Of a stretch of DNA of 64,000 bases, positions 41,584 through 64,000 are shown in pieces. Position 1 is the stretch's first letter. Every line of letters begins with the position of its first letter. The notes beneath the pieces were generated by a model that did not search any database, was not told where the DNA came from, and was given only the letters and a program-made list of their open reading frames with translations. The DNA comes from Tabrizicola aquatica (GTDB taxonomy: Bacteria > Pseudomonadota > Alphaproteobacteria > Rhodobacterales > Rhodobacteraceae): assembly GCF_002900975.1 (NCBI RefSeq), contig NZ_PJON01000003.1, positions 248,001-312,000 on the forward strand, written 5' to 3'. The position numbers and the translations under genes were made by a program.

Positions 41584-41612
41584 GTCAGAGCGCACCGACA
41601 GCAGGGTCGGCG

Positions 41613-42578: not shown

Positions 42579-42581
42579 GGC

Positions 42582-43550: not shown

Positions 43551-43558
43551 TGTCAGGC

Positions 43559-44980: not shown

Positions 44981-44997
44981 GGATCAATCCCCCTTGA

Positions 44998-46478: not shown

Positions 46479-46499
46479 CGCGCATTGTTTCCGGGCCTA

Positions 46500-47147: not shown

Positions 47148-47148
47148 C

Positions 47149-48540: not shown

Positions 48541-48696
48541 GTGATCTGCCCTTTCGACCACGCCTCTTTTTGGGTCTTGAATGCCCATAACCAGGTCACG
48601 ATGGCTTAGGAGCCGATTTTTTGCAAGAATCAAGCGTTTGTAAGGTTTTCTTGATGTGGACAAACTGCAACACGCGCAAGTTGTTGCAAATGAAAA

Positions 48697-48729
48697 GGGG
48701 CGCGACCCCATATGCTGTGGCCGCGCCCC
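48697..48729 (-). terminator. hairpin after cpaB
   Basis: GGGGCGCG and CGCGCCCC form an 8-bp stem, and the minus strand continues TTTTCA. It probably attenuates transcription between cpaB and cpaC in the 208-base gap. Confidence 0.6.
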
Positions 48730-48748
48730 CGTGAAAGTTCCAGTCCAG

Positions 48749-49588: not shown

Positions 49589-49648
49589 TCTTTTTCCCTC
49601 ATGTCGTGGGCGTTTGTGGACTTTTCGGTTGCGACTTTAATGCGAAAC

Positions 49649-49682
49649 GGGGCGCCCCATCAAGCTGATGGCCGGGCGCCCC
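49649..49682 (-). terminator. hairpin after the second flp gene
   Basis: GGGGCGCCC (49649-49657) pairs with GGGCGCCCC (49674-49682) around a 16-base loop. The minus strand continues into GTTTCGC. It lies 24 bases after the pilin stop and before cpaB, so pilin mRNA may be made in excess over cpaB. Confidence 0.6.
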
Positions 49683-49705
49683 ATTGGTGCGATGGCGAAG
49701 GCGGC

Positions 49706-49906
49706 TCAGTCTTGCGACTGGGCGGCTTCCAGGTTGCTGCCGGCGACGCCGATCTGGTCGCCGATCAGCACAGCCATGTCACCGATGGCGCGGGTGATGG
49801 GCGGCATCACGACAATCGCCAGGATGACAATGCCCGAGGTCAACACGACCCAGTCCACCGTTACGGCACCGGATTCGTCCTTCAGAAACCGTTTAAGGCG
49901 ATCCAT
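49706..49906 (-). CDS. flp: Flp-family type IVb pilin
   Basis: 66 residues. The leader MDRLKRFLKDESGA is followed by the pilin hydrophobic segment VTVDWVVLTSGIVILAIVVMPPITRAIG. The Glu/Val-Asp-Trp-Val-Val-Leu pattern is typical of alphaproteobacterial Flp pilins and matches the second pilin gene at 50138. CpaA would cut near the Gly-Ala. It has its own downstream hairpin. Confidence 0.92.
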   Translation of the reverse strand: MDRLKRFLKDESGAVTVDWVVLTSGIVILAIVVMPPITRAIGDMAVLIGDQIGVAGSNLEAAQSQD

Positions 49907-50016
49907 GACTTCGCTCCCATGCTTTCGGCGCGATCCAGCACGCCCGTTGGTTGCAGTCTTGCGGCCGATTGAGGCGAAACTTTAGCTGACATGGGACAAA
50001 TCGAGGTTTTTTCCCC

Positions 50017-50049
50017 CGATCCGCAGGAAACCACGATCCGCAGGAAACC
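50017..50049. repeat. 16-bp tandem direct repeat between the two flp genes
   Basis: CGATCCGCAGGAAACC occurs at 50017-50032 and again at 50034-50049, 17 bases apart. It lies about 110-145 bases upstream of the flp start at 49906 and just after the first pilin's terminator. It could be a two-site operator or a local duplication. Confidence 0.55.
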
Positions 50050-50081
50050 TTGTGTCGCCGGCTGGGTCGCCAAAACGAGAA

Positions 50082-50110
50082 GGACCACGCTTCCCAGGGA
50101 AGCGTGGTCC
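50082..50110 (-). terminator. strong intrinsic terminator of the first flp gene
   Basis: GGACCACGCTTCCC-A-GGGAAGCGTGGTCC is a perfect 14-bp stem with a single-base loop; the minus strand continues TTCTCGTTTTG. It lies 27 bases after the pilin stop. Confidence 0.85.
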
Positions 50111-50137
50111 AAAGTTCGACCTGGTGGAGGCCGAAAA

Positions 50138-50344
50138 TCAGGGGTTCAGAGCGTCCGAAGCCACGCCCATGCGGCTGCCGGCGTTGTCGACTTCAGCGCC
50201 GATGTCCGAGGCCAGCTGCGAAACGGCCGGAGCGACGAAGTTGAAGACAACGAGGCCCAGGGTCACGACGGCGGCGGTCAGAACGACCCAGTCAACGGTC
50301 ACGGCGCCGGTTTCGTCGTTCAGGAAAGCGGTGAACTTGGTCAT
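50138..50344 (-). CDS. flp: Flp-family type IVb pilin
   Basis: 68 residues: MTKFTAFLNDETGA leader, then VTVDWVVLTAAVVTLGLVVFNFVAPAVSQLASDI and a short polar tail. It is paralogous to the pilin at 49706 (shared GAVTVDWVVLT). AAAGGGAC precedes the ATG. As the most upstream gene of the Tad locus with a strong own terminator it is probably the major pilin. Confidence 0.93.
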   Translation of the reverse strand: MTKFTAFLNDETGAVTVDWVVLTAAVVTLGLVVFNFVAPAVSQLASDIGAEVDNAGSRMGVASDALNP

Positions 50345-50690
50345 GATTTTGTCCCTTTCAGAGGTGCTTACACTTTACTTCAACCGCTTCAGGATGGCTT
50401 CGTCTGTCTGCCGCTTCCCGTTCGGTATGGGCATATATGGCCCCCCAATCGTGGCAGCAGTTGGGAAGTGCCCGGAAGATTTTCAGCCATTTCGGTGAAA
50501 GCCCCGCTTTCTGGTCAAGTCTTTGTTTTTGTGAGAAACAATTCTTAACCGATTGTTCACCCCCTGCGACTAAAGCGTGCTTTTTCGGTCAAATCTGGCA
50601 GAAATGCCATGATTGGACCGTCAAACCGCTGGTCGGACGCCCCGGAAGCTGCGATTCTTCCGCAAAACAACGAGGCGAGCAGGCCCCGAC
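50345..50690. promoter_or_regulatory. divergent promoter region, flp pilin / lytic transglycosylase
   Basis: 346 bases without a gene, AT-richer than the flanks. On the minus side a CATATATG stretch (about 50430-50438) is a plausible -10 area for flp. TTCTTAACCGATTG (50543-50556) resembles a CtrA half-site, but the second TTAA is missing. Nothing else is recognised. Confidence 0.35.
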
Positions 50691-51563
50691 ATGACACACT
50701 CTACCCGGACGGTCGCAGCGATTCTCTGCGTCCTGCTGCCCTGCGCTGCGGCGGCAGAGGATTACACGTTCAAGCGGATCAAGGTGGGCGAAAGCCAGGC
50801 CGGCAAGCGCATCACCGTGCAGATCGACCCCGAGGAACAGGCGCGGTACCTGGCCTCGTTGCCGAAGGTCGATCCCTATCCCAAGCCCTCGGACCCGCTG
50901 CCGGCGGTCGAGGCCGACAGGGGCGACGGGCCAGAGGCGCCGGCCGCAGCGCCAGCCTCGTCCTATGCCTGGTTCTGGGACAAGGTGCCGCCGGGCCTGG
51001 CCGATGCCAGCGGGCGATTCGACACGGCGCTGGCGGCGCTGACGCAGGGACCGGACGGGACGGTGGTCGGCGCGCCACGGATGCAGCACATGCAGGCGGT
51101 GGCGGACCGGTACGGCAAGGACATCCTGCGCGCGACGCTGGACACCAATGTCTCGCCCGCGCTGGTGCTGGCGGTGATCGGGATCGAAAGTGCGGGGCGG
51201 CCCGATGCGATCAGCCATGCCGGCGCAGTCGGGCTGATGCAGCTTATCCCCGCGACGGCCGAGCGGTTCGGCGTCAGTGACAGCAGCGATCCGGTGCAGA
51301 ACATCCAGGGCGGCGTGGCCTATCTGAACTGGCTGCTGAAGGAATTCGACAATGACCCGCTGATGGTCCTGGCCGCCTACAACGCCGGCGAAGGCGCGGT
51401 GAAGGCGAACCAGGGCGTGCCGCCCTATGCCGAGACGCGGGATTATGTGCCGAAGGTGCTGGCGGCCTGGCGGGTGGCGCAGGGGCTGTGCCTGACCCCG
51501 CCGGAACTGGTGACCGATCCGTGCATCTTCCGCGTCATCGCCGACACGGCCAGCGACGGCTAG
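50691..51563 (+). CDS. lytic transglycosylase (SLT domain)
   Basis: 290 residues. A signal peptide (VAAILCVLLPCAAAA) precedes a Pro/Ala-rich spacer (about 60-110) and an SLT/goose-lysozyme-like domain with catalytic Glu in VLAVIGIESAGRPDAISHAGAVGLMQLIPATAERFG and MVLAAYNAGEGAV. It cleaves peptidoglycan glycan strands, and being next to the Tad locus it may open the wall for pilus assembly. ATG at 50691 begins the signal peptide. Its TAG overlaps the stop of the convergent gene (CTAG). Confidence 0.9.
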   Translation: MTHSTRTVAAILCVLLPCAAAAEDYTFKRIKVGESQAGKRITVQIDPEEQARYLASLPKVDPYPKPSDPLPAVEADRGDGPEAPAAAPASSYAWFWDKVPPGLADASGRFDTALAALTQGPDGTVVGAPRMQHMQAVADRYGKDILRATLDTNVSPALVLAVIGIESAGRPDAISHAGAVGLMQLIPATAERFGVSDSSDPVQNIQGGVAYLNWLLKEFDNDPLMVLAAYNAGEGAVKANQGVPPYAETRDYVPKVLAAWRVAQGLCLTPPELVTDPCIFRVIADTASDG

Positions 51564-51850
51564 ACGAAGACGTCAGCCCAGTCCGGGTGCTTGCGCGCCT
51601 GGGCTTTCACGAAGGGGCACAGGGGCACGACCTTGAAGCCGTCCTTCCGGGCCGCATCAACCAGCGCCTGAACAAGGTCCAGCCCCGCGCCGGTGCCGCG
51701 AAAGCTGTCGGGGACGCCGGTGTGGTCAGCGATGATCAGTGTCGGGGTGGTGATGGAATAGGTGAGTTTCGCTTCCTCATCCCCACGGCGAAGCACGAAG
51801 CGACCCTTGGTCGCCCCGTGTTCGCGCGTGATCTGGGGATCAGTCGACAA
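51560..51850 (-). CDS. GNAT-like N-acetyltransferase (COG2388/YjdJ type), probable TTG start
   Basis: About 96 residues: [78 protein letters not shown]. The VPxxFRGxGxGxxL CoA loop and the [15 protein letters not shown] end are diagnostic for the small YjdJ-type acetyltransferases. No ATG fits the expected N-terminus. TTG at 51850 has GAGG six bases upstream and gives normal family length. It overlaps the end of the CoA-transferase B gene by 11 bases. Confidence 0.85.
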
Positions 51851-52484
51851 TCGTCGCCTCGGTCGCGGCGCGAAGCTCGGCTTCGGTGACGCCGGGGGCG
51901 AGTTCGACGATGTGCAGGCCCTTGTGGCCCACGTCCAGGACGCCAAGGTTGGTGATGATGCGGTCCACCACGCCCTTGCCGGTCAAGGGCAGGGTGCAGG
52001 CCTTCAACACCTTCGACTCGCCGTGCTTCGAGGTGTGGTCCATCACCACCACCACGCGGCCCACGCCCGCCACGAGGTCCATCGCCCCCCCCATGCCCTT
52101 GACCAGCTTGCCGGGGATCATCCAGTTTGCCAGGTCGCCATTCTCCGCCACTTCCATCGCGCCAAGGATCGCCATGGCGATCTTGCCGCCGCGGATCATC
52201 GCAAAGCTTGTCGCGCTGTCGAAATAGGCAGTTTGCGGCAGTTCGGTGATCGTCTGCTTGCCGGCGTTGATCAGGTCGGCGTCCTCTTCCCCCTCAAACG
52301 GGAAGGGGCCCATGCCAAGCATCCCGTTTTCGGACTGCAGGGTCACGCTGATCCCTTCGGGGATATAGTTCGACACCAGTGTCGGGATGCCGATCCCGAG
52401 GTTGACATAGGTGCCATCGCGCAGTTCCTGCGCCGCGCGGGCGGCCATGCCGTTGCGATCCCAGCCTTTTGCTTCGCTCATCAT
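51840..52484 (-). CDS. 3-oxoacid CoA-transferase subunit B
   Basis: About 214 residues: [57 protein letters not shown], with the catalytic Glu in SENG, and a [16 protein letters not shown] end. Together with subunit A it moves CoA between succinyl-CoA and acetoacetate or other 3-oxoacids (SCOT). Tandem ATGs overlap the subunit A stop (ATGATGA region). Confidence 0.93.
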
Positions 52485-53185
52485 GCGTTCTCCCGCTTGC
52501 GCACGGTGCGCTGTTCGATCCGCTTCTCATGCTGTCCGGCGATGATGCGTTGGACGTAGATCCCCGGCAGATGGATCGAATCGGGGTCCAGGCTGCCCAG
52601 CGGCACGATCTCCTCGACCTCGACCACACAGGTCTTGCCGCAGGTGGCGGCAGGCACGTTGAAGTTGCGCGCGGTCTTGCGGAAGACGAGGTTGCCCGAG
52701 GGGTCTGCTTTCCAGGCCTTGACGATGGCAAGGTCGGCCACGATTCCGCGTTCCAGGATATAGGTCTTGCCGTCGAAGTCGTGGTGTTCCTTGCCCTCGG
52801 CGATCACGGTGCCGACGCCGGTCGCGGTGTAAAAGCCGGGGATGCCCGCGCCGCCGGCCCGCATCCGCTCGGCCAGGGTGCCTTGCGGGTTGAATTCAAG
52901 CTCCAGCTCTCCCGAAAGATACTGGCGCATGAATTCCGCGTTCTCGCCGACATAGGACGAGATCATCTTCTTGACCTGCCGGGTTTCCAGAAGGACCCCC
53001 AGGCCGAAACCGTCGACGCCCGCGTTGTTCGAGGCCACCGTCAGGCCCTTGACGCCCGAGTCGCGGATCGCGGCGATCAGAAGTTCAGGGATGCCGCAAA
53101 GGCCGAAGCCCCCGGCGGCGATCAGCATGCCGTCCTTCAACAGCCCGTCCAGCGCCGCGGCGGCGCTGGGAAATACCTTGTTCAT
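52481..53185 (-). CDS. 3-oxoacid CoA-transferase subunit A
   Basis: 234 residues: [109 protein letters not shown]. This is the classical SCOT A subunit. GGGGAGA precedes ATG at 53185. The pair is divergent from a PAS-LuxR regulator, its likely activator. Confidence 0.94.
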
Positions 53186-53268
53186 TTGTTTCTCCCCCCA
53201 TCGCGCCAAAGGGCGCGGAGCATTGCCGCAATGGTGAAAGATTGCGCAGCGGGCCACCATCCGTAAGA

Positions 53269-53288
53269 ATACGTAGGCCCATACGTAG
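53269..53288. promoter_or_regulatory. direct repeats ATACGTAG in the divergent CoA-transferase/LuxR promoter
   Basis: ATACGTAG at 53269-53276 and 53281-53288, 12 bases apart, lies 12-31 bases before the LuxR start. Each contains the palindrome TACGTA. It is a candidate binding site for the LuxR-type regulator. Confidence 0.45.
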
Positions 53289-53300
53289 AAGGTCCGCACA

Positions 53301-53852
53301 ATGGATTACGAACGCCTGGCCTTTCGCCATGCCCCGGATGCGACGCTGGTCCTGGCCGACCGGGTGATCCTGCGCGCGTCCCTGCGGGTCGAGGCGGTGT
53401 TCGGCTGGCGGCCGGGGGAACTGGAGGGGCAGTCGATCCGGGTGCTGTATCCCGGCCAGACCGATTACGAGGTGATCGGCGACCGGGCGCGCAAGGCCAT
53501 GGCCGCGGCCGAGGTCTACCGCGACGAACGCTTCATGCGGCGCAAGGACGGGCAGGTCGTGTGGATGGAAGGCCACGGCACCGCGCTGGACCGCGCGGAC
53601 CCGCAGCGGCTGGCGGTCTGGACCTATCGCCCGCTGGAGGGCGAGGGGCCGGCGGGCGCGCTGACGCCGACGGAACGGCGGATCGCGCGGTACCTGGTCA
53701 ACGGCTTCACCTCGAAGGAAATCGCGCTGGCCACGGGAAGCTCGCCCCGGACGGTGGAGGTGCATCGGGCGAACATGATCCGCAAGCTGGGGGTGCGGAA
53801 CAGTTTCGAACTGGTCAGCCGGTTGTTGTCCGCACCGGGGGCGGAGAAATGA
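53301..53852 (+). CDS. PAS domain LuxR-type regulator
   Basis: 183 residues. An N-terminal PAS domain (about 8-110: [46 protein letters not shown]...[20 protein letters not shown]) precedes a C-terminal LuxR HTH ([51 protein letters not shown]). It is divergent from the CoA-transferase genes with about 115 bases between, suggesting control of short-chain ketoacid use. The ligand or cofactor of the PAS domain is unknown. Confidence 0.88.
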
Positions 53853-53857
53853 CCCGG

Positions 53858-53933
53858 GACGGCTCGTCGATGGCTGCGCCACTCCTCGCAGATGCGCCGA
53901 GGAGGAGACGAAGTCGAACGAGGAGGAGGTCCT
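53858..53933. repeat. hairpin repeat between convergent genes, copy 2
   Basis: Homologous to 38168-38243 over its whole length (shared GACGGCTCGTCGATG, CACTCCTCGC and GAGGAGGAGACGAAGTCGAA), with a changed left arm that pairs less well. It again fills the gap between two convergent genes, PAS-LuxR and the unknown protein at 53932. Confidence 0.8.
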
Positions 53934-54948
53934 AGCAGCACTGCCAGCGGTTCAGGAAGGCCGTGGCATTGTGCTGGATATAGTCGATCTGCACCTTGTC
54001 ATCGCCGTCGCCCTTGCAGAACTGGCCGTGTGCGTACCAGTCCAGTTGCAGGGTCAGGTTGTCGTCGGCCGCCTCCAGCGCCGCGGCGCGCAGGGTTTCC
54101 GGGAAGCGGCCGGGCCAGCGGTCGCACAGAAGGACGAAGCGGGTCAGCGCCTCGGACCGGCAGGCGATGGGGGTGGATTGTCGGCGGTCGCGATAGCCGG
54201 GGCGGTCAAGGATCGCGGTGATCAGATCGGTGATATAGCCGACCAGCCGTTCTTCGCCCACCAGACCACGCTCGGCCGCTTCGCAGGCGGCATAGGCCAT
54301 CCAGTGGCTTTGTTCGGCCAGGCCGTAGCGGCGGGCCAGAAGCGCCTCGGTCGCGGCAAGGGTGCCGGGGTCGGTCTGGTCCGTGGTGAAGAGGCCAAGC
54401 AGAAGCTCTCCGGTGTAATAGTCGCTGCGGAAGGGCAGGATGGCGCCGTCCGCGAACTGCCGCTTGTGCAGGAAGTCGTGTCCGTCGCGCTGGGCGCGGC
54501 CATAGGCGGCAAGGGTCGCGATGGTCTGGCCCAGGGGCAGGGGCGTGGCCTGCGGCAGCCCGGTTGCGCGGCGGTAGGCGTCCAGCATCACCAGGGCCAG
54601 CCCGATGCCGCCGGTCTTGACCGCGCCCTTGGTCACCAGGGCCAGCGTCGGCTGGTCCAGCCAGTCGGGCTGCTGGAACTTGTCGGCCGCATAGCGCACC
54701 GCGCGGGCGATGGCGGCGCGGTCCGGCGCGGGCAGGTCCAGCCCAAGCTCGTTCACCGCGCGCAGCATGAACCACAGCGTGCCGCAGTGGCGCAGCATGT
54801 TGTAGCCGTCCAGCGGCTGGTCGGGCGCGCCGGCAGGATGGGCATAGATGAAACGACCCTCGGGCTGGATCAGCCGAAGAAGGTGCGCAAGGCTTGCCTC
54901 GACGATTGCGCGCAGGGCGTCGCGGGGTGCGGATTCGGCATAGGCCAT
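53932..54948 (-). CDS. hypothetical protein, helical-toroid-like
   Basis: 338 residues, almost entirely helical with repeated helix pairs: LAHLLRLIQPEGRFIYAHPAGAPDQPLDGYNMLRHCGTLWFMLRAVNELG, AALVTKGAVKTGGIGLALVMLDAYRRATG, DGAILPFRSDYYTGELLLGLF and SHWMAYAACEAAERGL. The spacing resembles alpha/alpha-toroid glycosidase-like proteins (six-hairpin fold). I cannot name a family. It ends with a Cys pair (WQCC). No signal peptide is seen. It is convergent with the PAS-LuxR gene. Confidence 0.65.
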   Translation of the reverse strand: MAYAESAPRDALRAIVEASLAHLLRLIQPEGRFIYAHPAGAPDQPLDGYNMLRHCGTLWFMLRAVNELGLDLPAPDRAAIARAVRYAADKFQQPDWLDQPTLALVTKGAVKTGGIGLALVMLDAYRRATGLPQATPLPLGQTIATLAAYGRAQRDGHDFLHKRQFADGAILPFRSDYYTGELLLGLFTTDQTDPGTLAATEALLARRYGLAEQSHWMAYAACEAAERGLVGEERLVGYITDLITAILDRPGYRDRRQSTPIACRSEALTRFVLLCDRWPGRFPETLRAAALEAADDNLTLQLDWYAHGQFCKGDGDDKVQIDYIQHNATAFLNRWQCC

Positions 54949-55056: not shown

Positions 55057-55142
<86 letters not shown>

Positions 55143-55519: not shown

Positions 55520-56149
55520 TCACGGCATATGGGGGTAAGGCGGCTGCGACGGTACATGGACGGTGACCGTGGCATTGGCCGTAATCAGGCCGGGCCGTTC
55601 CACCCAGGCGCAAACCCCCCTCCGATAGGCCGCTGCTTGACGAAACCCGGGGTGCCCGGTTGCTGGTGTGTCAATCAGGCGGGCTGGATGATTGCAGGGC
55701 GCATTCTCAAGATCGACGACAAGAGCCGCCCCGGATGAAAACAGCAACCGCGTCGATGGCGGCAGCAGCGACAGCGCCGGAATTCCGCAAAGCCGGATTG
55801 TCGCCCCCAGCGCCGCCGGCGAAACCTGGGCAATCCCCATGATCTGCGCCACTTCGGCCAGTTCCTCGTCACTTACAATGGTGATCTGCCTTGTGTTGCG
55901 GATCATCGTGCCTGGGGCATAGACCAGCGACAGTCGCATGCAGGAGGCGCGGTCGATGCCATGATGACTGTCCCCAACCGCGCCGCCGGCGTCTGCCACG
56001 ATCTCGTCGACCTGCGCCGAAGCAAGGCTTGCGGCCCTGTCACGCACCAGTCCAAGATAGGTCACCTGTCCGGTGACCTTCAACTGGACGAAGAAAGGAG
56101 GCCGCCGGGCGTCCTGGGCCGTGAGAGAGCCGATGGATTGATCGGTCAT
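55520..56149 (-). CDS. MOSC domain protein
   Basis: 209 residues. MOSC features are GDSHHGIDRASCMR, a charged IVSDEELAEVAQIMGIAQVSPAALGATIRLCGIPALSLLPPSTRLLFSSGAALVVDLENAPCNHPARLI, with the Cys of ENAPC at the position usually used for sulfur carriage in MOSC proteins. MOSC domains occur at the C-terminus of molybdenum-cofactor sulfurases and as stand-alone proteins. Its ATG overlaps the TGA of the small CxxC gene (ATGA). It is the last gene of the operon. Confidence 0.75.
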   Translation of the reverse strand: MTDQSIGSLTAQDARRPPFFVQLKVTGQVTYLGLVRDRAASLASAQVDEIVADAGGAVGDSHHGIDRASCMRLSLVYAPGTMIRNTRQITIVSDEELAEVAQIMGIAQVSPAALGATIRLCGIPALSLLPPSTRLLFSSGAALVVDLENAPCNHPARLIDTPATGHPGFRQAAAYRRGVCAWVERPGLITANATVTVHVPSQPPYPHMP

Positions 56150-56343
56150 GTTGCCCGACCCAAAGCGGAAAAAAGAAACATGACCGCGGCGATGACTGCG
56201 TACAGGCCAAGCACATAGACGCAGCAGCGCCAGTCGGGGACAACAAGGCCGGTGCCGCGGCAGGTCGTGCAGCCCTGCAACGGGCGCAGGTGGCCGCGCG
56301 CATCCACACAGTCAGGACAGAGTAACGGTTGTTCATAGGACAT
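56146..56343 (-). CDS. small CxxC/zinc-knuckle membrane protein
   Basis: 65 residues. Two Cys pairs, CPDC and CTTCRGTG (DnaJ-like CxxCxGxG), lie in the first 30 residues and could bind zinc. One transmembrane helix follows (VYVLGLYAVIAAVMFLFSAL). ATG at 56343 is chosen over GTG 56355. It is 33 bases downstream of the cysteine desulfurase gene and overlaps the MOSC gene. A metal-binding membrane adaptor is possible; no family is recognised. Confidence 0.65.
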   Translation of the reverse strand: MSYEQPLLCPDCVDARGHLRPLQGCTTCRGTGLVVPDWRCCVYVLGLYAVIAAVMFLFSALGRAT

Positions 56344-56376
56344 GGCTGCGCTCACTTCCTGTTACTGGAAAACGGA

Positions 56377-57660
56377 TCAAGGCTTGCAGAAGACCGCGAT
56401 GTCACTCAGCGCACCAAGAAAGGCGGTGACATCGTCCAACGTGTTGTAAAGGTGCAGCGAGGCACGCAACGCGGGTTCCGCGCCGACATGCTGATAGAAC
56501 GGCTGGGCACAGTGATGCCCATGCCGCAATGAGATCTGATAGCTGTCCGACAGGATCTCGGCCATTTGTCCGAGGTTCATTTCCGACCGTGGGACAAAGG
56601 TCACGATGCCGGTGTTCTTCCTGCCCGGCGCAAAAGGCATTGCAAAGGCCGGAATGGCCGCAATGCCGGCGCGCAGCGTTTCGGCCAGGGTTGCGACATG
56701 GGCGGCGATGCGGTTGACGCCGATCCCTTCGAGATAATCGACCGCCGCACCAAGGCCAACCGCGCCTTCGGCATTCGGGCTGCCCATCTCGAAGGCCTCT
56801 GGTCCGGTTTTCTGCACGAAATGCGTCGGCCCGACATATTCAACCGTGCCGCCGCCATGGCGCCGCGCTTGCAGGATGGCGGCGCCCTCGTCACTCATCG
56901 CAAGCACGCCGATGCCCGAGGGGCCGAGCATCTTGTGGCCCGAGAAGGTGCAGAAGGTGCAACCCATTTCGGCCATGGACAAGGGCAGGTGCCCCGCCAT
57001 CTGCGCCGCATCGATCAACAGCAGAATGCCTGCGGCCCGGGCAATTTCGGCAATGTCTGCGACAGGCTGAACCGCACCGCTGACATTCGAGGCCGCAGTA
57101 ACGGCGATCAGCCTTGTGCGCGGGGTAATGGCTTTGCGCAGGGCATCAAGGTCGATCATGCCATTGGCATCGATGCCCACCGTGACCACCCGCGCCGCCT
57201 GCCGCCAAGGCAGGAGGTTCGAATGATGCTCCATCGCCGAAACGATGACCTCGTCGTCTGGCGCAAGATCAAGCCCTTCGGCCACGCGCAGGATGGCATC
57301 CGACGCGTTCAGCGTGAAAACGATCTGGTCGGGCCGCGCCCCCACAAAGCCGGCAACCCGCGCCCGGGCCGCTTCGAACTTTGTCGTGGCCCGTTCCGAT
57401 ACGGAATGGCCTGCGCGGGAAATCGCGCCGGTACTGGTTTCGTAAAAGGCGCTGACCGCGTTGATCACGCTGCGGGGTTTCAGCGCCGTCGCGGCACTGT
57501 CCAGATAGATCAACTGGCCCGACAGCATCGGAAAGTCCGCGCGGCAAGGCCGCCCGGACGGCAACATGAGATGCCCGGCGGGAAAGGCACTTGCCGCTTC
57601 GGCCGCTGGGGTGAGCGGCGCGAGGGGAGGGACGGCAACAAGGTCTTGAGGCACAATCAT
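56377..57660 (-). CDS. SufS-like cysteine desulfurase (class V aminotransferase)
   Basis: 427 residues with a non-standard 42-residue N-terminal extension before FPMLSGQLIYLDSAATALKP. PLP-enzyme motifs are AMEHHSNLLPWRQAA, the Schiff-base Lys in FSGHKMLGPSGIGVL (K243) and the persulfide Cys in RHGHHCAQP (C384). It would release sulfur from cysteine as an enzyme persulfide. It stands outside any suf/isc cluster, so it probably supplies sulfur to the pathway encoded around it, perhaps through the MOSC protein. Confidence 0.85.
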   Translation of the reverse strand: MIVPQDLVAVPPLAPLTPAAEAASAFPAGHLMLPSGRPCRADFPMLSGQLIYLDSAATALKPRSVINAVSAFYETSTGAISRAGHSVSERATTKFEAARARVAGFVGARPDQIVFTLNASDAILRVAEGLDLAPDDEVIVSAMEHHSNLLPWRQAARVVTVGIDANGMIDLDALRKAITPRTRLIAVTAASNVSGAVQPVADIAEIARAAGILLLIDAAQMAGHLPLSMAEMGCTFCTFSGHKMLGPSGIGVLAMSDEGAAILQARRHGGGTVEYVGPTHFVQKTGPEAFEMGSPNAEGAVGLGAAVDYLEGIGVNRIAAHVATLAETLRAGIAAIPAFAMPFAPGRKNTGIVTFVPRSEMNLGQMAEILSDSYQISLRHGHHCAQPFYQHVGAEPALRASLHLYNTLDDVTAFLGALSDIAVFCKP

Positions 57661-57686
57661 GACAGGGTTCTCCGTTCTGGACAGGC

Positions 57687-58874
57687 TCAGACGTGCTTGA
57701 TGGCGGCGAACTTTCCGGACCCTTCGGGCGCTATTTCGGTCACGCAGCGCACAGTGGTCGCCCGCCCGTTGCCCATCAGACCGCGCACCGCCTGTTCCCA
57801 GGGCGCAGGGTCGGTTGCAGGATCCGACACGGCCAGCAACTCAACCGAAGTAGCGTTCCAGCGCATCTGGAACTGTGCCGGCGCCGCCCCCGTCGCTTCA
57901 AGCGCGCGGTCTACGTCACGCGGGGTTACAAGGCCGCCGTCATCGTCGCGTGCGCAATCCTTCAGCCGCCCGGCGGTGGCGATGGGCCGGTCGGGGGCAT
58001 CCGCGTCCACGGCCAGAAGATCGCCGGTTTCATAGCGCACCAGCGGCATATGCCGATTTTTCGACGTGGTGATCACCAGACGACGAAGATCAGGGCGGCC
58101 GGCAACGGGCAAAAGCTCGATCACGCTACTGTCGGCCACGGGTTTGAAACCGTCGTCGGTCTGCACGAAGGCATAGCCGAACTCTGTCGCGCCAAACAGA
58201 TCATGAGTCTTTGCGCCAAAGAAGGATTCAACCTGCCGGCGCGCGGCCGAGGACGCAAAGTCATAGCTGACCGTGAGCACGCGGGGGCGGTGCCGGGGCG
58301 GGGCAATCCCGAAAGCTGCCGCCTTGCGGGCCAGAATGGCGCCATAGCCACCATGCATGTCCAGATAGGCGGGTTGCCAGCGATCAATCTCGTCCACGAT
58401 CCGCGCGACGTCAGCGGCGCTCCAACGGTTCGGGTCAGGCGCGGTGTTCAGGTGGAGCGTCTTGCCGATGATCCGCTGGTCATAGGTGGGATTGTCGCGC
58501 CAGCACACCGCCGAGGAACAGACGCTGGTGGTCAGCACCGCCTTCTGGGTCTGTGCCGGATCCATCAGCGCCAGTTCCGGGTGGACGGCATAGGTCCGCC
58601 GGTATTCCGATTGCCACCAGTTGCGCTCGCGTACGATCTGAAGCCGGTCGCCCGAAGTGCCCGAGGTGGAGGCATACTCTACCTCGTCCGCCGCGATGGC
58701 CGCCCGCAGCGCAGGGGTCATCCACATCATCGGAAACTGCCCGTTCAGCTGCGCCTTGGTGAGGATCGGCAAACTGGCAAGCGCCTGCGGATCATCCAGC
58801 GGAATTTCGGCCGGATAGCCGGAGTAGACCGGGATATCGTTCAGGCGCAGGGCCATGTCTTTCGCATCAAACAT
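57687..58874 (-). CDS. PaaK-like adenylate-forming enzyme (ANL superfamily)
   Basis: 395 residues. The P-loop is STSGTSGDR (about 69-77). Adenylation motifs are LFGATEFGYAF (A5 type), RYETGDLLAVD (A7 type) and the C-terminal PEGSGKFAAIKHV with a likely catalytic Lys388. Layout and length match phenylacetate-CoA ligase relatives. It would activate a carboxylate as acyl-AMP, then pass it to CoA, an amine or another nucleophile. ATG at 58874 follows AAAGGATG. It overlaps the upstream hydrolase gene by 8 bases. Confidence 0.85.
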   Translation of the reverse strand: MFDAKDMALRLNDIPVYSGYPAEIPLDDPQALASLPILTKAQLNGQFPMMWMTPALRAAIAADEVEYASTSGTSGDRLQIVRERNWWQSEYRRTYAVHPELALMDPAQTQKAVLTTSVCSSAVCWRDNPTYDQRIIGKTLHLNTAPDPNRWSAADVARIVDEIDRWQPAYLDMHGGYGAILARKAAAFGIAPPRHRPRVLTVSYDFASSAARRQVESFFGAKTHDLFGATEFGYAFVQTDDGFKPVADSSVIELLPVAGRPDLRRLVITTSKNRHMPLVRYETGDLLAVDADAPDRPIATAGRLKDCARDDDGGLVTPRDVDRALEATGAAPAQFQMRWNATSVELLAVSDPATDPAPWEQAVRGLMGNGRATTVRCVTEIAPEGSGKFAAIKHV

Positions 58875-59706
58875 GGGACATCCTTTCTGTTTCGGCCGGC
58901 TCGCGGGCGGTGCTGCGATCGGCGGCGGCGGTGACAAAGGCGGCGAACAACCGTTCGGTCTGCGGGAAATTTCGGCGGGTCTTTTCGGGATGCGATTGCA
59001 GCCCGAAGATGAAGGCGCCCTCGGCGTCCTCGATCGCTTCGACCAGGCCGTCAGGGGCGTGGCCTGCAGCGACCAGGCCGGTGCCAAGCCGCTCTATCCC
59101 CTGGTGATGCACCGATGAGACGGTGACCTCTGGCGTGCCAAGAATGCCTGCCATCCGGCTTTTGGGCTGCAGAATCATCGGGTGATAGGGGATCCAGCCG
59201 TCGTTTTCGACGAAATGGCCCAGCCCCTCGGGCAATTCCTGGATCAGCGTGCCGCCCCGCGCCACATTGATCACCTGCATCCCTCGGCATATGCCAAGGA
59301 TCGGCTTTGAGGCGGCTTCCATCATCTTGAAGAGCGCGATTTCCATTGCGTCGCGCCGCACATCCGGGGCCATGATCGCCGGACGCTTGCCGGGCGTGCC
59401 CACGCCTTCGGCGGCGCCATAGGTCACAGCGGGCTGTTCCCCATAGCGCAATGGATGCACATCGCGTCCCGGCGGCAGCAACAGCCCGTCGCAGAGGTGG
59501 ATGATCTGCATGGCATCGGCCGGTGTCATGCTGTCGGGCAGCACCAGCGGGATCCCGCCATGGTCGCGCACCAGCGCAAGGATCGCGTCGGAAACGCAGC
59601 ACACGATCTGACGCGCGGAAAAATTCACGGCGGCGTTGACGGTCCCGCCGACGATGGCGATGACGGGGGCCTTCTGTCCCGACCGGATTGGTGATGCGGC
59701 GGTCAT
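58867..59706 (-). CDS. class I glutamine amidotransferase-like gamma-glutamyl hydrolase (PuuD-like)
   Basis: 279 residues of peptidase family C26. The nucleophile is in LGICRGMQVINVARGGTLIQELP (C140); FENDG-like HFVENDGWIPYHP, VSSVHHQGIERLG, and GLQSHPE (H239, E241) complete the triad. PuuD hydrolyses gamma-glutamyl-GABA, and homologues remove gamma-glutamyl groups from pathway intermediates. ATG at 59706 overlaps the ATP-grasp stop (ATGA). Beside a GCS2 gamma-glutamyl ligase it suggests an attach-and-remove glutamyl strategy. Confidence 0.88.
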   Translation of the reverse strand: MTAASPIRSGQKAPVIAIVGGTVNAAVNFSARQIVCCVSDAILALVRDHGGIPLVLPDSMTPADAMQIIHLCDGLLLPPGRDVHPLRYGEQPAVTYGAAEGVGTPGKRPAIMAPDVRRDAMEIALFKMMEAASKPILGICRGMQVINVARGGTLIQELPEGLGHFVENDGWIPYHPMILQPKSRMAGILGTPEVTVSSVHHQGIERLGTGLVAAGHAPDGLVEAIEDAEGAFIFGLQSHPEKTRRNFPQTERLFAAFVTAAADRSTAREPAETERMSHV

Positions 59707-60656
59707 GCGATGCGCCGTTCCGCGACGGGCGCGCGCGACAGCCGGTCAAGATGGTCGGTCAGGATTTCCAGCTTGCGCGCATCAAGGGCGTAGCTTGGAT
59801 CCACCTCGCGCAGAGAGGTCTTGGGGCTGACCCGCATCGCCTCTTCCACAAAGATCCCCAGGATCGGGTTCACTTCGACCACCGTCACCCGGCCGTTGCG
59901 TTCATCCCGCAGGAAATCGACGATGGAATACTCAAGTCCGATGGCGCGGGCCGCATCTTCGGCCAGGCCACGCAGCGCCGTATCGGGCGGGTTCGGCGTC
60001 ATGATTCCGCCCGAACTGACATTGGTCTTGAACGCATGTGTGCGGCGCCTGGAGTAGCCGCCGATACCGGTGCCGGCGGCAATCTCGACGCGCATGTCCA
60101 GATCGCCGAAGGGGATGAATTCCTCGCAATAGTAATTGTCGACACCGGTTTCGATCTGGCAGAAATCGGCAAGCTGGCCGGCATCGGTGAATCGCACGAT
60201 CCCATAGCCCCCGTGGCGGGTGCGCGGTTTGACAACCAGCGACCCCCAGTCGCGGATCAAGGCGGCGGCATCACGCGCCAGGGCCCGAGGTGTCAGCAGG
60301 ACCGAGCGTGGCACGCTGATGCCGGCGTTGCGCAGCATCTGGTTCGCGGTCGGCTTGTCGCGCGCGGCATCATAGGCCCCGGGCGTATTGACCACCCGGA
60401 CGCCCGACCGTTCCAGTGCATGCAACTGATCGGCCTGGTTCGGGCTTTGGCGGTCTGCGTCCATGTAGAAGAACACGTCCAGCGCCGACAGGTCGCGCCC
60501 GTCCTGGGTGAACACGCGGCCATCGCGCGTTGCGCTTTCGCGCATGTCGATCTTGCCGACAACCCTGTGACCCAGCGCCTCGAGCCGCGCTGTCAGGCGC
60601 GCCTCGATCGATGCGCCGCCGTCGTTATCGTACATGGAAAGGCCGATCTCTGCCAT
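59703..60656 (-). CDS. RimK/glutathione-synthase-like ATP-grasp ligase
   Basis: 317 residues. An N-terminal domain (IGLSMYDNDGGASIEARLTARLEALGHRVVGKIDM) precedes an ATP-grasp domain with KPRTRHGGYGIVRF (ATP loop), DNYYCEEFIPFGDLDMRVEIAAG and the metal-binding VVEVNPILGIFVEEA (E-x-N). ATP-grasp ligases join a carboxylate (through acyl-phosphate) to an amine. Beside GCS2 it may perform the second condensation, as GshB does after GshA. It starts 7 bases after the GCS2 stop. Confidence 0.85.
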   Translation of the reverse strand: MAEIGLSMYDNDGGASIEARLTARLEALGHRVVGKIDMRESATRDGRVFTQDGRDLSALDVFFYMDADRQSPNQADQLHALERSGVRVVNTPGAYDAARDKPTANQMLRNAGISVPRSVLLTPRALARDAAALIRDWGSLVVKPRTRHGGYGIVRFTDAGQLADFCQIETGVDNYYCEEFIPFGDLDMRVEIAAGTGIGGYSRRRTHAFKTNVSSGGIMTPNPPDTALRGLAEDAARAIGLEYSIVDFLRDERNGRVTVVEVNPILGIFVEEAMRVSPKTSLREVDPSYALDARKLEILTDHLDRLSRAPVAERRIA

Positions 60657-60663
60657 GATGTGT

Positions 60664-62031
60664 CTAAGCCCCCTGTGCTTGCAATTGGGCCGCGGCCGGG
60701 TTCGTGCGCTGGGCAGCCCGCTGGAACAGCGGCTCTAGCAGCACGGCTTCGTCAAAGCCGCGGGCCTGCAACCCTTGCCGGGCGAAGGCCAGCGTGGTCT
60801 GGCAGATCTCGTCCAGCGGCCGTTTCAGCATATCGGTCGGCATGGCCCAGCCGTGCTGGGCGGCGGTCGCGCGAAGGTGCATCGGATCGGCGTCGCCCGT
60901 CACCTCGGCCAGATAGCGAGCGACAGGTAGCGCCAGCGCGCCGAGCCCAAGCGTGAATGCGGCCGGCGCCAGGATCGCATCACGCGGTTGCAGGCAATCG
61001 CCCCGCACCTCGATCGTGCCATAGGCGGTGGGAACGGCATGTCCGTAGGCCCGGTAATGGCGGGCGTCCTCGGGCGTCAGGCGCAATTGGGTTATGATCG
61101 GCACGCCACCCAGATCGCTGCGTGCGGTTACATGGGGATAGGCGTCAAGACGTTCCAGCGGCACGGGATCAAAGCTCCAGACCGTCTGGCCCCGGCGCGC
61201 CATGAAAAGCCCCTGATGCGCCTGGGTGCGGAGAAACTGGTCGATATCCTGCGCCAACTCGCGCGGCGCATAGCTGCCAAGCCCGCCAAAGGCCGAACTG
61301 CGCCACAGGTGGTCGCGTGAGACCAGATGGGTTTCACCGCCCCATGTCCCGGCCGAGTTCGCCATCAACAGGGCCGCAACAAAGCCCGCGCGGCGGAAGG
61401 TTTCGGACAAAAGCGGCGCCGTGGCCGCACAGGCATCGACATGGGTCTGGCACGAGGCGATGAAGCCGGTAAAGCGGTGATAATCGCCCCCGCGCGTCGC
61501 GCTTTTCAGAAAGCGGTCGATGGCCCGGTAATGTGGTGTCGGCAAGGGCGGCGCGGTGCGCGACCAGGCCTGCGGATGCAACCCGCTGTCGCCAAGATAC
61601 AGGCCAAGATCGGCCAGAACCGCATCCAGCGCACCGAGGACCTTGCCCAAAAGATCCGACAGCGCAAGGCAATCGCGCGCCGGGGCCAGGGCAATCTCAA
61701 GGACCGCGCGGGCGTATTCATAGCCGATTGTCACTTGGCCGTCGGTCGTACGGACGGTGATTACCTCGCCCGTGTCGCTGCGCCCGACCACCTCCAGCCC
61801 CAGGGCGGTGGCAATCCTGCCTACCACGTCATCCTCGATGGTCAGGGCCTGCCCGGTCCGGGTGCAAAGCGGGAACTCCAGCTCGACCCCTACCTGGGAA
61901 TGCGCCACCTGCGGCCGGTTCAGGATCGCCGCATAGCGCGCTGCCAGGACGTCGCGCACCCGGGCGCCGCCCGAATGGGGAACCGCGGGCCAGGCTACGG
62001 GATCATCGAAGGCAATCGCAAGTTTCTGCAT
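60664..62031 (-). CDS. GCS2-type glutamate-cysteine ligase-like carboxylate-amine ligase
   Basis: 455 residues of the GCS2 superfamily. VGVELEFPLCTRTGQALTIEDD (GxExEF nucleotide-binding start), IGYEYARAVLEIALAP, RFTGFIASCQTHVDACAA and TAYGTIEVRGDCLQPRDAILAPAAF match gamma-glutamylcysteine ligase/EgtA/YbdK-type enzymes. It should join the gamma-carboxyl of Glu to an amine (Cys or another). The housekeeping GshA of the organism is probably elsewhere. The start is ATG 62031 with a weak GAGAG. The next gene follows by 7 bases. Confidence 0.82.
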   Translation of the reverse strand: MQKLAIAFDDPVAWPAVPHSGGARVRDVLAARYAAILNRPQVAHSQVGVELEFPLCTRTGQALTIEDDVVGRIATALGLEVVGRSDTGEVITVRTTDGQVTIGYEYARAVLEIALAPARDCLALSDLLGKVLGALDAVLADLGLYLGDSGLHPQAWSRTAPPLPTPHYRAIDRFLKSATRGGDYHRFTGFIASCQTHVDACAATAPLLSETFRRAGFVAALLMANSAGTWGGETHLVSRDHLWRSSAFGGLGSYAPRELAQDIDQFLRTQAHQGLFMARRGQTVWSFDPVPLERLDAYPHVTARSDLGGVPIITQLRLTPEDARHYRAYGHAVPTAYGTIEVRGDCLQPRDAILAPAAFTLGLGALALPVARYLAEVTGDADPMHLRATAAQHGWAMPTDMLKRPLDEICQTTLAFARQGLQARGFDEAVLLEPLFQRAAQRTNPAAAQLQAQGA

Positions 62032-62104
62032 GATGCACTCTCAATTTCTGGGGGAGATCCCGTGCGACGCCCGTCACCGGGGCAACAGGCGTCGCGAGGT
62101 GATG

Positions 62105-62731
62105 TCAGGCCGCTTGCAGGGCTGCAGGCGCGGCGGACGGCCGGCTGAGCATCGTTTCGCGCCACACTTTCAGGTAGGGATGGCGGGCGAACAGATCCGG
62201 CCCAAGCGCCTGGACAAGGCTTTCGGTGTACTGGACGAAGCACAGGTCAGCGAGCGTCACCTCGTCCCCGGCCAGGTAGGGCGTCTTTTCCAACTGCGCC
62301 TCAAGCGCATCATAGACGACCATCACGTCGCGGGTGGCCCGCTCTACGACTGCCTCGTCTGTCGCCATTCCGTACATCGGTGCGAACAGTTTCTGGAACA
62401 CCACGTCATAGGCTGCCGGGGTGAAGTAGCAGGCATCAACGCTGATCCATTGATCCATCAGGCCGCGATCTGACAGGGCCTGTGGAACGAGGGGGAGGTC
62501 CGGACGCTTGGCGGCAAGATAGCGCAGGATGGCCCGAACTTCGTAGATGCGGGTGTCACCGTCCTCAAGCACGGGGACACGGCCAAAGGGATGGCGTGCC
62601 AGATGTTCGGGGGACTTGTGTTCGCCCTTGGACAGATCGACCAGAACGAACTGTGCATCCTGTCCGGTTTCATGAAGCGCCATCAGGGCGGTCTTGGTGC
62701 AGGCGCTGTGCGGGTTTCCGTAAAGCTTCAT
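62105..62731 (-). CDS. glutathione S-transferase
   Basis: 208 residues. The thioredoxin-like N-terminal domain (MKLYGNPHSACTKTALMALHETGQDAQFVLVDLSKGEHKSPEHLARHPFGRVPVLEDGDTRIYEVRAILRYLA) has a Ser9/Cys11 active-site region of phi-class or bacterial type and the VPVLEDGD-E/S glutathione site. An all-helical C-terminal domain with LAGDEVTLADLCFVQYTESL follows. Inside an operon with GCS2 and ATP-grasp ligases its thiol co-substrate may be the operon's own product rather than glutathione. Confidence 0.9.
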   Translation of the reverse strand: MKLYGNPHSACTKTALMALHETGQDAQFVLVDLSKGEHKSPEHLARHPFGRVPVLEDGDTRIYEVRAILRYLAAKRPDLPLVPQALSDRGLMDQWISVDACYFTPAAYDVVFQKLFAPMYGMATDEAVVERATRDVMVVYDALEAQLEKTPYLAGDEVTLADLCFVQYTESLVQALGPDLFARHPYLKVWRETMLSRPSAAPAALQAA

Positions 62732-62743
62732 TCTGCGTGCTCC

Positions 62744-63685
62744 TTATTGTGCCTGTTTCGCGCCGACGCCAAGCTGGTAGCCCATCTCGATCGAGTTCCC
62801 GAAGGACCAGCCCTTGTCGATCTTGCCGTCTGGGGTGAAGGAAATGACGTCGATGTTGTCGACGATCACGAACCGGTTCGAGGCCGGGATCCCCATCAGC
62901 TCGCCCTTGTGCCTGGCGGTGAAAATGCCCTGGTGGATCACGAACTGATTGTTGCCCCAGACGTTCACGGACTTGATCTCGGGGTCGCCGAAGGCGCTGC
63001 GCAGCATGGCAAAATCCGAAGCCGAGTGTTTCTTGCCGACGGCAAGCCCCGGTGCCATCTGGTCATCCCAGGCGATGTCGTCGGTCATGTAGTCCAGCCA
63101 CGGCTGCAACTGTCCGCCAAGCAGGTAGCTGTGATAGGTCCGCAGGTGCCGGATATTGGCCGCTTCGGCATCGGTCCGTCCCGCAACAAAGATCTCGGGT
63201 GCGGTGGCATGTGGGGGAATCTCGCGGCCCGGCTCGGCCCCGGCGCCCAGTTGCTTCAGGACACCATAGGGGTCCCAGTAGGTGCATTCCTTGATGATCT
63301 TGCCGTCTTCGCCGAACCAGAAGACCGAAGCGCCCATGACGCCGACCTGCTTGCCGCTGGCCGGCACGCCCAGATAGTCGGCGTCCTGCGTCGCGTGCCA
63401 GGTCCACACCGCAATCATGCAGCGGTCCTGGATGAACCGGTACGTGTCGGCGATGCTTTGATTGCCGAAGGTTTCGAAATGACGCGCCATGACATCGCGG
63501 ATTTCCGTGCGGCCAATCGCGTCCGGCGTGCCGGGATTCACGCGGATCGCCGCCGGTGCAAACAGCGCGCCCAAGGCATCTGCGTCGCGGCTGCGAAAGG
63601 CCTTCAGATAGGCCTCACGCGCGCCGATGATGTCGAAATCGGTTGCCAGGGCCGCTTTGGTGCGGATGGACGTTGCCTCGTTCAT
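62744..63685 (-). CDS. tandem SnoaL-like (NTF2-fold) domain protein
   Basis: 313 residues forming two NTF2-fold halves. Domain 1 spans about 18-140: REAYLKAFRSRDADALGALFAPAAIRVNPGTPDAIG...VFWFGEDGKIIKECTYWD. Domain 2 spans about 180-305: RHLRTYHSYLLGGQLQPWLDYMTDDIAWDDQMAPGLAVGKKHSASDF...VISFTPDGKIDKGWSFGN. SnoaL-like proteins catalyse cyclisations, isomerisations or hydroxylations on small molecules. Its ATG overlaps the preceding stop (ATGA) and it lies 12 bases before the GST gene. Confidence 0.8.
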   Translation of the reverse strand: MNEATSIRTKAALATDFDIIGAREAYLKAFRSRDADALGALFAPAAIRVNPGTPDAIGRTEIRDVMARHFETFGNQSIADTYRFIQDRCMIAVWTWHATQDADYLGVPASGKQVGVMGASVFWFGEDGKIIKECTYWDPYGVLKQLGAGAEPGREIPPHATAPEIFVAGRTDAEAANIRHLRTYHSYLLGGQLQPWLDYMTDDIAWDDQMAPGLAVGKKHSASDFAMLRSAFGDPEIKSVNVWGNNQFVIHQGIFTARHKGELMGIPASNRFVIVDNIDVISFTPDGKIDKGWSFGNSIEMGYQLGVGAKQAQ

Positions 63686-64000
63686 TCTGCAAGCTCCTTT
63701 GTCAGGGTGACGTGATCCAGAAGGGTTTCAGGCATGGGCCCCTCGCTTGGGGCTTCGAAATCGATGTTGAAGATTTCGCGGTTGCGTTCTTTCATCCAGA
63801 CATCGAACGGGTGCCGCGAGACGGCGAGCGCGGCAAAGGCGCTGCCAAGGTCCTTGGCCGCCAGAAACATCAGGCAATGCGCCTGCCCGCCGATTTCCTG
63901 CAGATACCAGCGTTCTTCGCTTGCCCCGACCCGGGCGAGAAAATCGTTGAATTGGTCCCGTTTGGGTCCGGTCAACTGGGCGGCCAGTTCGCGCAGGGCG
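63682..64000 (-). CDS. DUF6176-like protein, 5' end outside window
   Basis: The frame stays open to the right edge, so the start lies beyond 64000. The visible end reads ALRELAAQLTGPKRDQFNDFLARVGASEERWYLQEIGGQAHCLMFLAAKDLGSAFAALAVSRHPFDVWMKERNREIFNIDF. This matches a small family with YLQE and FDxWxKExxxEIxxIDF motifs (annotated elsewhere as DUF6176-like). Role unknown. It is translationally coupled to the double SnoaL gene and shows that the operon continues to the right. Confidence 0.7.
   Translation of the reverse strand, partial: ALRELAAQLTGPKRDQFNDFLARVGASEERWYLQEIGGQAHCLMFLAAKDLGSAFAALAVSRHPFDVWMKERNREIFNIDFEAPSEGPMPETLLDHVTLTKELAE

Follow-up and report, generated by a model that had tools for sequence, protein, structure and literature searches.

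Ten genes lie on the minus strand at the end of a 64,000-nucleotide stretch of the 3.87 Mb genome of Tabrizicola aquatica (contig NZ_PJON01000003.1, positions 248,001 to 312,000; the whole stretch is called the window here, and its numbering is carried on beyond 64,000), reading from position 55,520 past 64,000. We found that the edge of the window cuts an apparent operon, as five further genes on the same strand lie upstream, giving 15 in total. The ten genes make up the downstream two thirds of what appears to be a single operon directed to a small molecule not yet characterised. In Pseudomonas sp. LD120, Pseudomonas brassicacearum 48H11, and Pseudomonas sp. SID14000, 12 of the 15 families are again found together as one cluster, and we conclude firmly that the cluster is biosynthetic, rare, and conserved across distantly related bacteria.

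The original prediction, made from the window alone, had proposed a pathway that builds or uses a glutathione-like carrier. We have replaced that label with a specialised-metabolite, probably antibiotic-type, cluster of which sulfur handling is one module, because the 15-gene set includes three radical S-adenosylmethionine (SAM) enzymes, a P450, and a JmjC protein, and because the Pseudomonas clusters carry a second leucyl-tRNA synthetase (LeuRS). Our preferred reading, to which we give a probability of about 0.42, is that the cluster makes an antibiotic-type product not yet characterised: a glutathione S-transferase (GST) would attach a thiol of the gamma-glutamyl-cysteine type to an oxidised intermediate, a C26 hydrolase would trim the conjugate, and a SufS-like enzyme would convert it, with the second LeuRS conferring self-resistance in Pseudomonas. 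An antibiotic-type product, LeuRS as its target in Pseudomonas, and mobility of the cluster are in our view probable; the thiol and sulfur-insertion chemistry is inferred.

Gene set, counterparts, and rarity

The ten genes of the window were taken from a reading of its open reading frames (ORFs), and 18 T. aquatica proteins (the 15 of the cluster and three encoded further upstream) were scanned with Pfam and NCBIfam. The features of the cluster are as follows (aa, amino acids; PLP, pyridoxal phosphate).

55520..56149, minus strand: MOSC-domain protein, 209 aa, accessory (Pfam MOSC 3.4e-10)
56146..56355, minus strand: 69-aa protein, hydrophobic at its C-terminal end and with two CxxC pairs (by eye), accessory (ORF; no Pfam match)
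56377..57660, minus strand: SufS-type PLP enzyme, 427 aa (Pfam Aminotran_5 1.7e-104; TIGR01979 3.7e-102)
57687..58874, minus strand: ANL-like adenylating enzyme (weak NCBIfam matches)
58867..59706, minus strand: Peptidase C26 / PuuD-type gamma-glutamyl hydrolase (Pfam C26 3.3e-48)
59703..60656, minus strand: RimK-type ATP-grasp ligase, 317 aa (Pfam RimK 5.5e-9)
60664..62031, minus strand: divergent GCS2-family ligase, 455 aa (Pfam GCS2 2e-6)
62105..62731, minus strand: glutathione S-transferase-like protein, 208 aa (Pfam GST_N 1.3e-16, GST_C 2e-15)
62744..63685, minus strand: double SnoaL-domain protein, 313 aa (Pfam SnoaL, two stretches, 3.7e-30)
63682..64000, on to 64,047, minus strand: DUF6176-like protein, 121 aa (2.5e-4, under threshold)
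64,076-65,449, minus strand: P450
65,439-66,608, minus strand: JmjC/cupin-8 oxygenase
66,601-68,559, minus strand: TsrM-like radical SAM enzyme of the cobalamin type
68,586-69,503, minus strand: SPASM radical SAM enzyme
69,547-71,214, minus strand: PhpK-like radical SAM enzyme with B12-binding domain

The ten minus-strand genes are present where they had been predicted, and the spacing that we recomputed from DUF6176 to MOSC (-4, 12, 73, 7, -4, -8, 26, 21, and -4 bases) bears out 73 bases as the largest gap. The predicted size of the operon did not stand, since the set comprises 15 genes and the window holds its tail only. Past 64,000, the DUF6176 gene is completed outside the window and the P450, JmjC/cupin-8, TsrM-like, SPASM, and PhpK-like genes follow, with gaps of no more than 43 bases, to an upstream limit at 71,214; the starts of the SPASM, TsrM-like, P450, and ANL genes are our choice. 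From this spacing, the 15 genes apparently form one transcript. Most of the predicted family names were supported by Pfam or NCBIfam. The exceptions are DUF6176 and the ANL-like enzyme, which has no Pfam match and whose best NCBIfam match (9.2e-10, to an AMP-dependent CoA ligase model) is far under the cut-off. The SufS-like enzyme, a class-V aminotransferase of the SufS subfamily, scored 342 bits on TIGR01979 against a cut-off of 475.

A gap of 521 bases parts the 15 genes from three same-strand genes further upstream, which encode an ABC half-transporter (nearest models CydC/CydD, far under cut-off), a DUF1611-like P-loop protein, and an alpha/beta hydrolase. We count the 15 genes as the cluster and these three as possible accessories. 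Type III secretion-type genes (YscJ/FliF, an ATPase with a type III secretion C-terminal domain, FliP, and FlhB/YscU) adjoin the upstream end of the cluster beyond the window, at C6:325485-332983, and may belong to a flagellum or to an injectisome.

In the three Pseudomonas strains the order is SPASM, TsrM-like, JmjC, P450, DUF6176, SnoaL2, GST, ATP-grasp, C26, ANL, SufS-like, and GCS2. Eleven families are collinear with the T. aquatica cluster, and GCS2 is displaced, standing between GST and ATP-grasp in T. aquatica and after the SufS-like gene in Pseudomonas. Because the 11 families keep the same order in three clusters, the arrangement is more than chance; the common order points to inheritance as a unit, with GCS2 excepted. 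Identity between the T. aquatica and Pseudomonas proteins is highest for SPASM (64-67%), followed by P450 (48-49%), SnoaL2 (46-47%), GST (45-48%), TsrM-like (44-45%; 5.6e-172 or better in all three strains), ATP-grasp (43-45%), SufS-like (42-44%), C26 (40-42%), DUF6176 (40%), ANL (35-37%), JmjC (30-33%), and GCS2 (20-24%). The MOSC, 69-aa, and PhpK-like proteins had no BLASTP match at 1e-3 among the ORFs of the three Pseudomonas regions and are therefore not core. Homologues of the window genes thus do occur together in other genomes, an outcome in favour of the original prediction, which would have been refuted had they never been found so.

The gap 3′ of the GST gene (window 62032-62104) is kept at 69-73 bases in all four clusters despite a different next gene, GCS2 in the window and ATP-grasp in Pseudomonas, and it may hold a signal. 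SID14000 alone has a transposase-like ORF (by eye) between GCS2 and the LeuRS gene, within an intervening stretch of 1,265 bases. LuxI/LuxR genes often adjoin antibiotic clusters. LD120 has genes of both types upstream of the cluster on the opposite strand (L190:9507-11208), and P. brassicacearum has a LuxI gene upstream (L188:8346-10004), beside which a stretch 66% identical to the LD120 LuxR region reads as two overlapping frames; genes of this type were not seen by eye at the corresponding place in SID14000. LD120 is an alga isolate covered in a study of the P. protegens subgroup, in whose main text the terms "leucyl" and "radical SAM" are absent (PMC10432460).

To look for relatives of the cluster, we aligned the TsrM-like enzyme with the plasmid-borne tsrT and back-translated their common CxxxCxxCxEPxxKGxxxxxR stretch as a search pattern. 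It matched three of 59 loci examined, two of them being the same T. aquatica gene, and a genome scan with it gave at least 116 loci. Among the best 60 of these listed by tblastn with the 18 T. aquatica proteins, clear orthologues of cluster genes were found in three, namely those of the three Pseudomonas strains, and three of the other loci listed had a JmjC-like neighbour and one a weak P450-like neighbour; 107 of the 116 loci were judged on pieces of up to 8 kb, so that a cluster crossing such an edge could escape. Six more distant TsrM-like loci (L194-L199), viewed more widely, have other neighbours, with three near a JmjC-like gene. Their TsrM-like genes, from Myxococcales and other metagenome-assembled genomes (MAGs), two Streptomyces, and a Thiohalocapsa MAG, are 34-37% identical to that of T. 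aquatica by BLASTP and mark a wider TsrM-like family.

A search with the SPASM enzyme matched two of 298 genomes of the genus Pseudomonas, both of them clusters already known (the LD120 genome is not in this sample). Within the order of T. aquatica, 24 of 292 genomes matched the TsrM-like enzyme at 1e-3, the best besides its own gene being a 138-residue piece at 1.2e-7. Since these matches are short or weak against the 5.6e-172 of the orthologues, we place the cluster in one of the 292 genomes, that of T. aquatica itself. A single-protein scan of genome contigs with the TsrM-like enzyme gave no relative. As a marker, the T. aquatica GCS2 protein found only itself in 101 genomes, itself and three weak matches in 397 genomes of the phylum (by eye, one GshA-like and two that look unrelated), whereas 72,556 plasmids gave no match. 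These negatives say little, since the protein also missed the Pseudomonas clusters (0 of 14 genomes). Plasmid searches with the TsrM-like, JmjC, SPASM, and ATP-grasp proteins gave 12 matches, among which, with three inspected, the cluster was not recognised. A search with the TIGR04428 family matched 129 of 200 genomes with none over the cut-off, and was set aside as generic radical SAM matches.

The ATP-grasp ligase as a marker matched 22 of 398 genomes at 1e-10, T. aquatica included. Four of the matching loci, together with one on a plasmid, were inspected (17 others were not) and rejected as relatives of the cluster, for all five hold a different, unrelated cassette, made up of two ATP-grasp genes, an M14 carboxypeptidase gene and, in four of the five (by eye), a gene for an M20-like peptidase. 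The cassettes (L029:10703-17083, L042:5285-11633, L043:5719-11572, L044:559-6273, and L045:1978-7685), from Photobacterium and four genomes of the phylum, with Pfam run on L029 alone, hold the closest relatives that we found for the ATP-grasp enzyme beyond the clusters themselves. The earlier statement that no cluster with this set had been described agrees with our search of the open-licence PMC literature, in which no matching cluster or pathway was found; most subscription papers and preprints lie outside that scope.

Leucyl-tRNA synthetase copies and genomic setting

In all three Pseudomonas strains the cluster ends with a LeuRS gene of 934-942 residues, and each host has one other LeuRS gene elsewhere; the T. 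aquatica cluster has none. The cluster copies are 69-89% identical among themselves and 37-39% identical to the other LeuRS of their hosts. They are closer (44-51%) to the LeuRS of two Streptomyces, a myxobacterial MAG, and an unclassified bacterial MAG, and are 38-39% identical to that of a Thiohalocapsa MAG. HVGH and KMSKS are intact in all three, and the LD120 copy scored 922 bits on the bacterial LeuRS model TIGR00396 (cut-off 548). A functional-looking, foreign-type spare of an essential enzyme within a biosynthetic operon is a usual sign of self-resistance, and we therefore read it in that way. By analogy with agrocin 84, discussed below, this suggests that the Pseudomonas product inhibits LeuRS.

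The synthetase might instead supply Leu-tRNA or leucyl-adenylate for biosynthesis, a role consistent with its full length, its intact motifs, and its position as last gene of the operon. We consider such a role very unlikely, in that the 18 T. aquatica proteins include no recognisable tRNA-dependent transferase, and the synthetase is missing from the T. aquatica cluster, which nevertheless has the 12 shared families; LeuRS is therefore not needed for the chemistry of the cluster.

The cluster lies close to a tRNA gene, as follows.

55057..55142, plus strand: tRNA-Leu(UAA) (ARAGORN)

At 11 of 11 relative loci the match to the T. aquatica region stops, within one base, at or before the 3′ end of this tRNA, and nothing matches beyond it at 1e-5 in up to 1,500 bases per locus. 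Because same-genus synteny ends there, the cluster sits in a variable region that starts at tRNA-Leu(UAA). In one relative (G014:C6:177586-185767), a full copy of the tRNA and a 38-base piece of tRNA-Leu lie about 8 kb from each other, which suggests another island at the same site and makes tRNA-Leu(UAA) look like a recurrent insertion site. No integrase was noticed among the ORFs read, and no model-based search for one was made. We consider the cluster to be probably mobile.

Sulfur chemistry and its alternatives

In the pathway that we propose, the radical SAM enzymes, JmjC, and P450 would build and oxidise the core, and GCS2 would make a thiol of the gamma-glutamyl-cysteine type, which the ATP-grasp enzyme may extend. 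The GST would then attach this thiol to an electrophile arising from the oxidation, and C26 would remove the gamma-glutamyl group from the conjugate. The SufS-like PLP enzyme would break the C-S bond or deliver sulfur, such that the sulfur stays in the product, and ANL would activate a carboxylate for late coupling.

An oxidase, a GST, a gamma-glutamyl hydrolase, and a PLP C-S enzyme occur together, as families, in all four clusters. Also kept in all four are residues on which these families depend, namely the HxD...H of JmjC, the haem Cys of P450, CxxxCxxC in SPASM and TsrM-like (SPASM with four more Cys, 3+4), the Cys and H-x-E of C26, and a Cys at the SufS catalytic position. The SufS-like enzyme of T. 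aquatica reads RHGHHC, which we take to be the SufS motif, and those of Pseudomonas read SSG[FY]QC. The TsrM-like enzyme shares the CxxxCxxCxEPxxKG stretch with TsrM, and its 72.3 bits on TIGR04428 (TsrM tryptophan C2-methyltransferase) fall short of the cut-off of 500. No obvious precursor of a ribosomally synthesised and post-translationally modified peptide was found among small ORFs viewed by eye in the 521-base gap or upstream of SPASM in Pseudomonas, and a product of that kind is not supported.

The GCS2 ligases of T. aquatica, LD120, and P. brassicacearum are all over the Pfam PF04107 cut-off of 21 bits, with 27.8, 114 (1.1e-32), and 125.5 bits (3.4e-36), respectively; that of SID14000 was assigned by its 84% identity to LD120 GCS2. 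Both scanned Pseudomonas ligases are nearest the plant-type glutamate-cysteine ligase TIGR01436 (LD120 7.5e-69 and 232.3 bits, P. brassicacearum 3.4e-69 and 233.4 bits, or about half of the equivalog cut-off of 463), with EgtA next, likewise under its cut-off. The P. brassicacearum protein also matches PDB 2gwc (2.5e-54), and T. aquatica GCS2 has no TIGR01436 match. Comparison of T. aquatica and Pseudomonas GCS2 profiles, which are thin, gave an hhalign probability of 0.15%, that is, no detectable orthology. The gamma-glutamyl thiol of the original prediction is supported to some degree by the likeness of Pseudomonas GCS2 to a glutamate-cysteine ligase. From these sequence comparisons we read that GCS2-type ligases entered the pathway on two independent occasions; if that is right, a GCS2-type activity is needed there.

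Several points weigh against our preferred reading. Because T. aquatica GCS2 is so divergent, with no link to the Pseudomonas ligases in the profile comparison, glutamate and cysteine are not established as its substrates, and its predicted structure (mean pLDDT, a per-residue model confidence score, of 35.5) was not used. We recognised no Cys-Gly peptidase in the set of 18 T. aquatica proteins, although none would be needed if the thiol is gamma-Glu-Cys itself, and the SufS-like enzyme keeps a cysteine that a plain C-S lyase would not need. The T. aquatica genome shows a single LeuRS gene, outside the cluster (search at E 1e-30 or better). Its identity to the LeuRS of 12 same-genus relatives is 85-93%, and it has no unusual change. 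A resistant form of this LeuRS is unsupported: of its 13 private differences, eight precede the likely start and five fall at sites variable among seven class relatives, and the 12 same-genus relatives, handled alike, have 0-19 such differences. A single ordinary LeuRS implies no LeuRS-based immunity in T. aquatica and counts against the same target there; the organism may export or mask the product, or its product may differ. The pattern-derived loci (at least 116, with the best 60 listed) undersample both the rarity and the LeuRS link. As for mobility, no repeat of the tRNA end that could mark a second junction was found in the window or the adjoining stretches examined, and there is no clear shift in G+C (about 0.61-0.67 in the cluster vs 0.61-0.65 at 40,000-54,000, with a single 2-kb bin of 0.578 at the upstream edge).

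The gamma-glutamyl enzymes could alternatively mask an amine. GCS2 would cap the amino group of an intermediate with gamma-glutamate, oxidation would follow, and C26 would uncap it in the manner of PuuD, with the ATP-grasp enzyme making a carrier dipeptide. C26 is indeed of the PuuD type (PRK11366 matches of 4.7e-21 in T. aquatica and 6.7e-24 in LD120, both under cut-off), T. aquatica GCS2 has a very weak leaning towards carboxylate-amine ligases of the YbdK type (0.015), and tabtoxin offers an earlier case, in Pseudomonas, of a toxin pathway that uses an ATP-grasp amino-acid ligase (PMC13338154). We regard masking as unlikely, however, given that it finds no function for either the GST or the SufS-like enzyme and that Pseudomonas GCS2 is nearest a cysteine-using ligase.

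Another reading that we hold to be improbable makes the SufS-like protein a true cysteine desulfurase, whose sulfane sulfur would go to an ANL-activated carboxylate, giving a thioacid, or would rebuild an auxiliary Fe-S cluster that SPASM spends as its sulfur source. The Cys kept in four of four clusters, the RHGHHC of the T. aquatica enzyme, the adjacent MOSC gene in T. aquatica, and the four extra conserved Cys of SPASM, the best conserved protein, would fit, and AbmM of albomycin is described as using up an Fe-S cluster as sulfur donor (PMC12691670). Yet no SufE/TusA/ThiS-like acceptor was recognised among the 18 T. aquatica proteins, and there is no further gene from SPASM to LeuRS in the Pseudomonas operons, save the transposase-like ORF of SID14000. 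Moreover, the Pseudomonas enzymes have lost the R..HH of the motif, and GST, C26, and GCS2 would stay unexplained. A molybdenum cofactor sulfurase (NifS-like plus MOSC) was rejected because MOSC is not core; the two genes are, in addition, separate.

Finally, a thiol or detoxification island without antibiotic function would account for the GST, GCS2, ATP-grasp, and MOSC genes and for the lack of a second LeuRS in the T. aquatica genome, but is most improbable beside three radical SAM enzymes, a P450, and a JmjC protein in one T. aquatica set and the LuxI/LuxR genes and second LeuRS of Pseudomonas.

Comparison with known systems

The ergothioneine Egt pathway brings together a GCS2-family ligase, a gamma-glutamyl hydrolase, and a SufS/EgtE-like PLP enzyme, as the cluster does. 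An ergothioneine cluster was nevertheless rejected because no EgtB or EgtD was found among the Pfam and NCBIfam matches of the 18 T. aquatica proteins; the EgtE model matched at 4e-31, with 108 bits against a cut-off of 400. Mupirocin comes from a Pseudomonas cluster with self-resistance by a second, divergent class-I synthetase. That enzyme is an IleRS rather than a LeuRS, and no polyketide synthase is among the genes shared here.

Few natural products are known to hit LeuRS; agrocin 84, a nucleotide-type compound, is a cluster-encoded example. Agrocin 84 (TM84) is reported as a LeuRS inhibitor whose producer has a resistant LeuRS, AgnB2 (PMC5059758), and the likeness to the Pseudomonas clusters, as far as that account goes, is a producer with a second LeuRS for self-immunity; nothing further is claimed to be shared. 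LeuRS inhibitors are described as being in clinical study (PMC6658769), and the cluster gives a predicted target ahead of any known product, with the three Pseudomonas strains as likely producers. Albomycin likewise is described as inhibiting a tRNA synthetase, and its cluster and that of 4′-thiothymidine resemble ours in using radical SAM enzymes in sulfur placement; this is a likeness by description only, and glutathione, cysteine desulfurase, and P450 are absent from the main text of the source (PMC12691670).

For the sulfur chemistry, the nearest parallel that we see is the glucosinolate route of plants, whose enzymes belong to other families than those of the cluster. By the account given in PMC6243137, P450 products take up glutathione, GGP1 removes the gamma-glutamate, and SUR1 is the C-S lyase; the predicted order of functions in the cluster is the same, namely oxidation, thiol conjugation, gamma-glutamyl removal, and C-S cleavage. 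The two differ in that the thiol may be made within the cluster, the SufS-like enzyme keeps its Cys, and the role of the GST is a predicted one. It is possible, if doubtful, that the cluster makes a new class of natural LeuRS inhibitors with sulfur brought in through an in-cluster gamma-glutamyl thiol, which would make it a self-contained bacterial counterpart of the glucosinolate sulfur route and a testable case of glutathione-like sulfur insertion encoded as one bacterial module.

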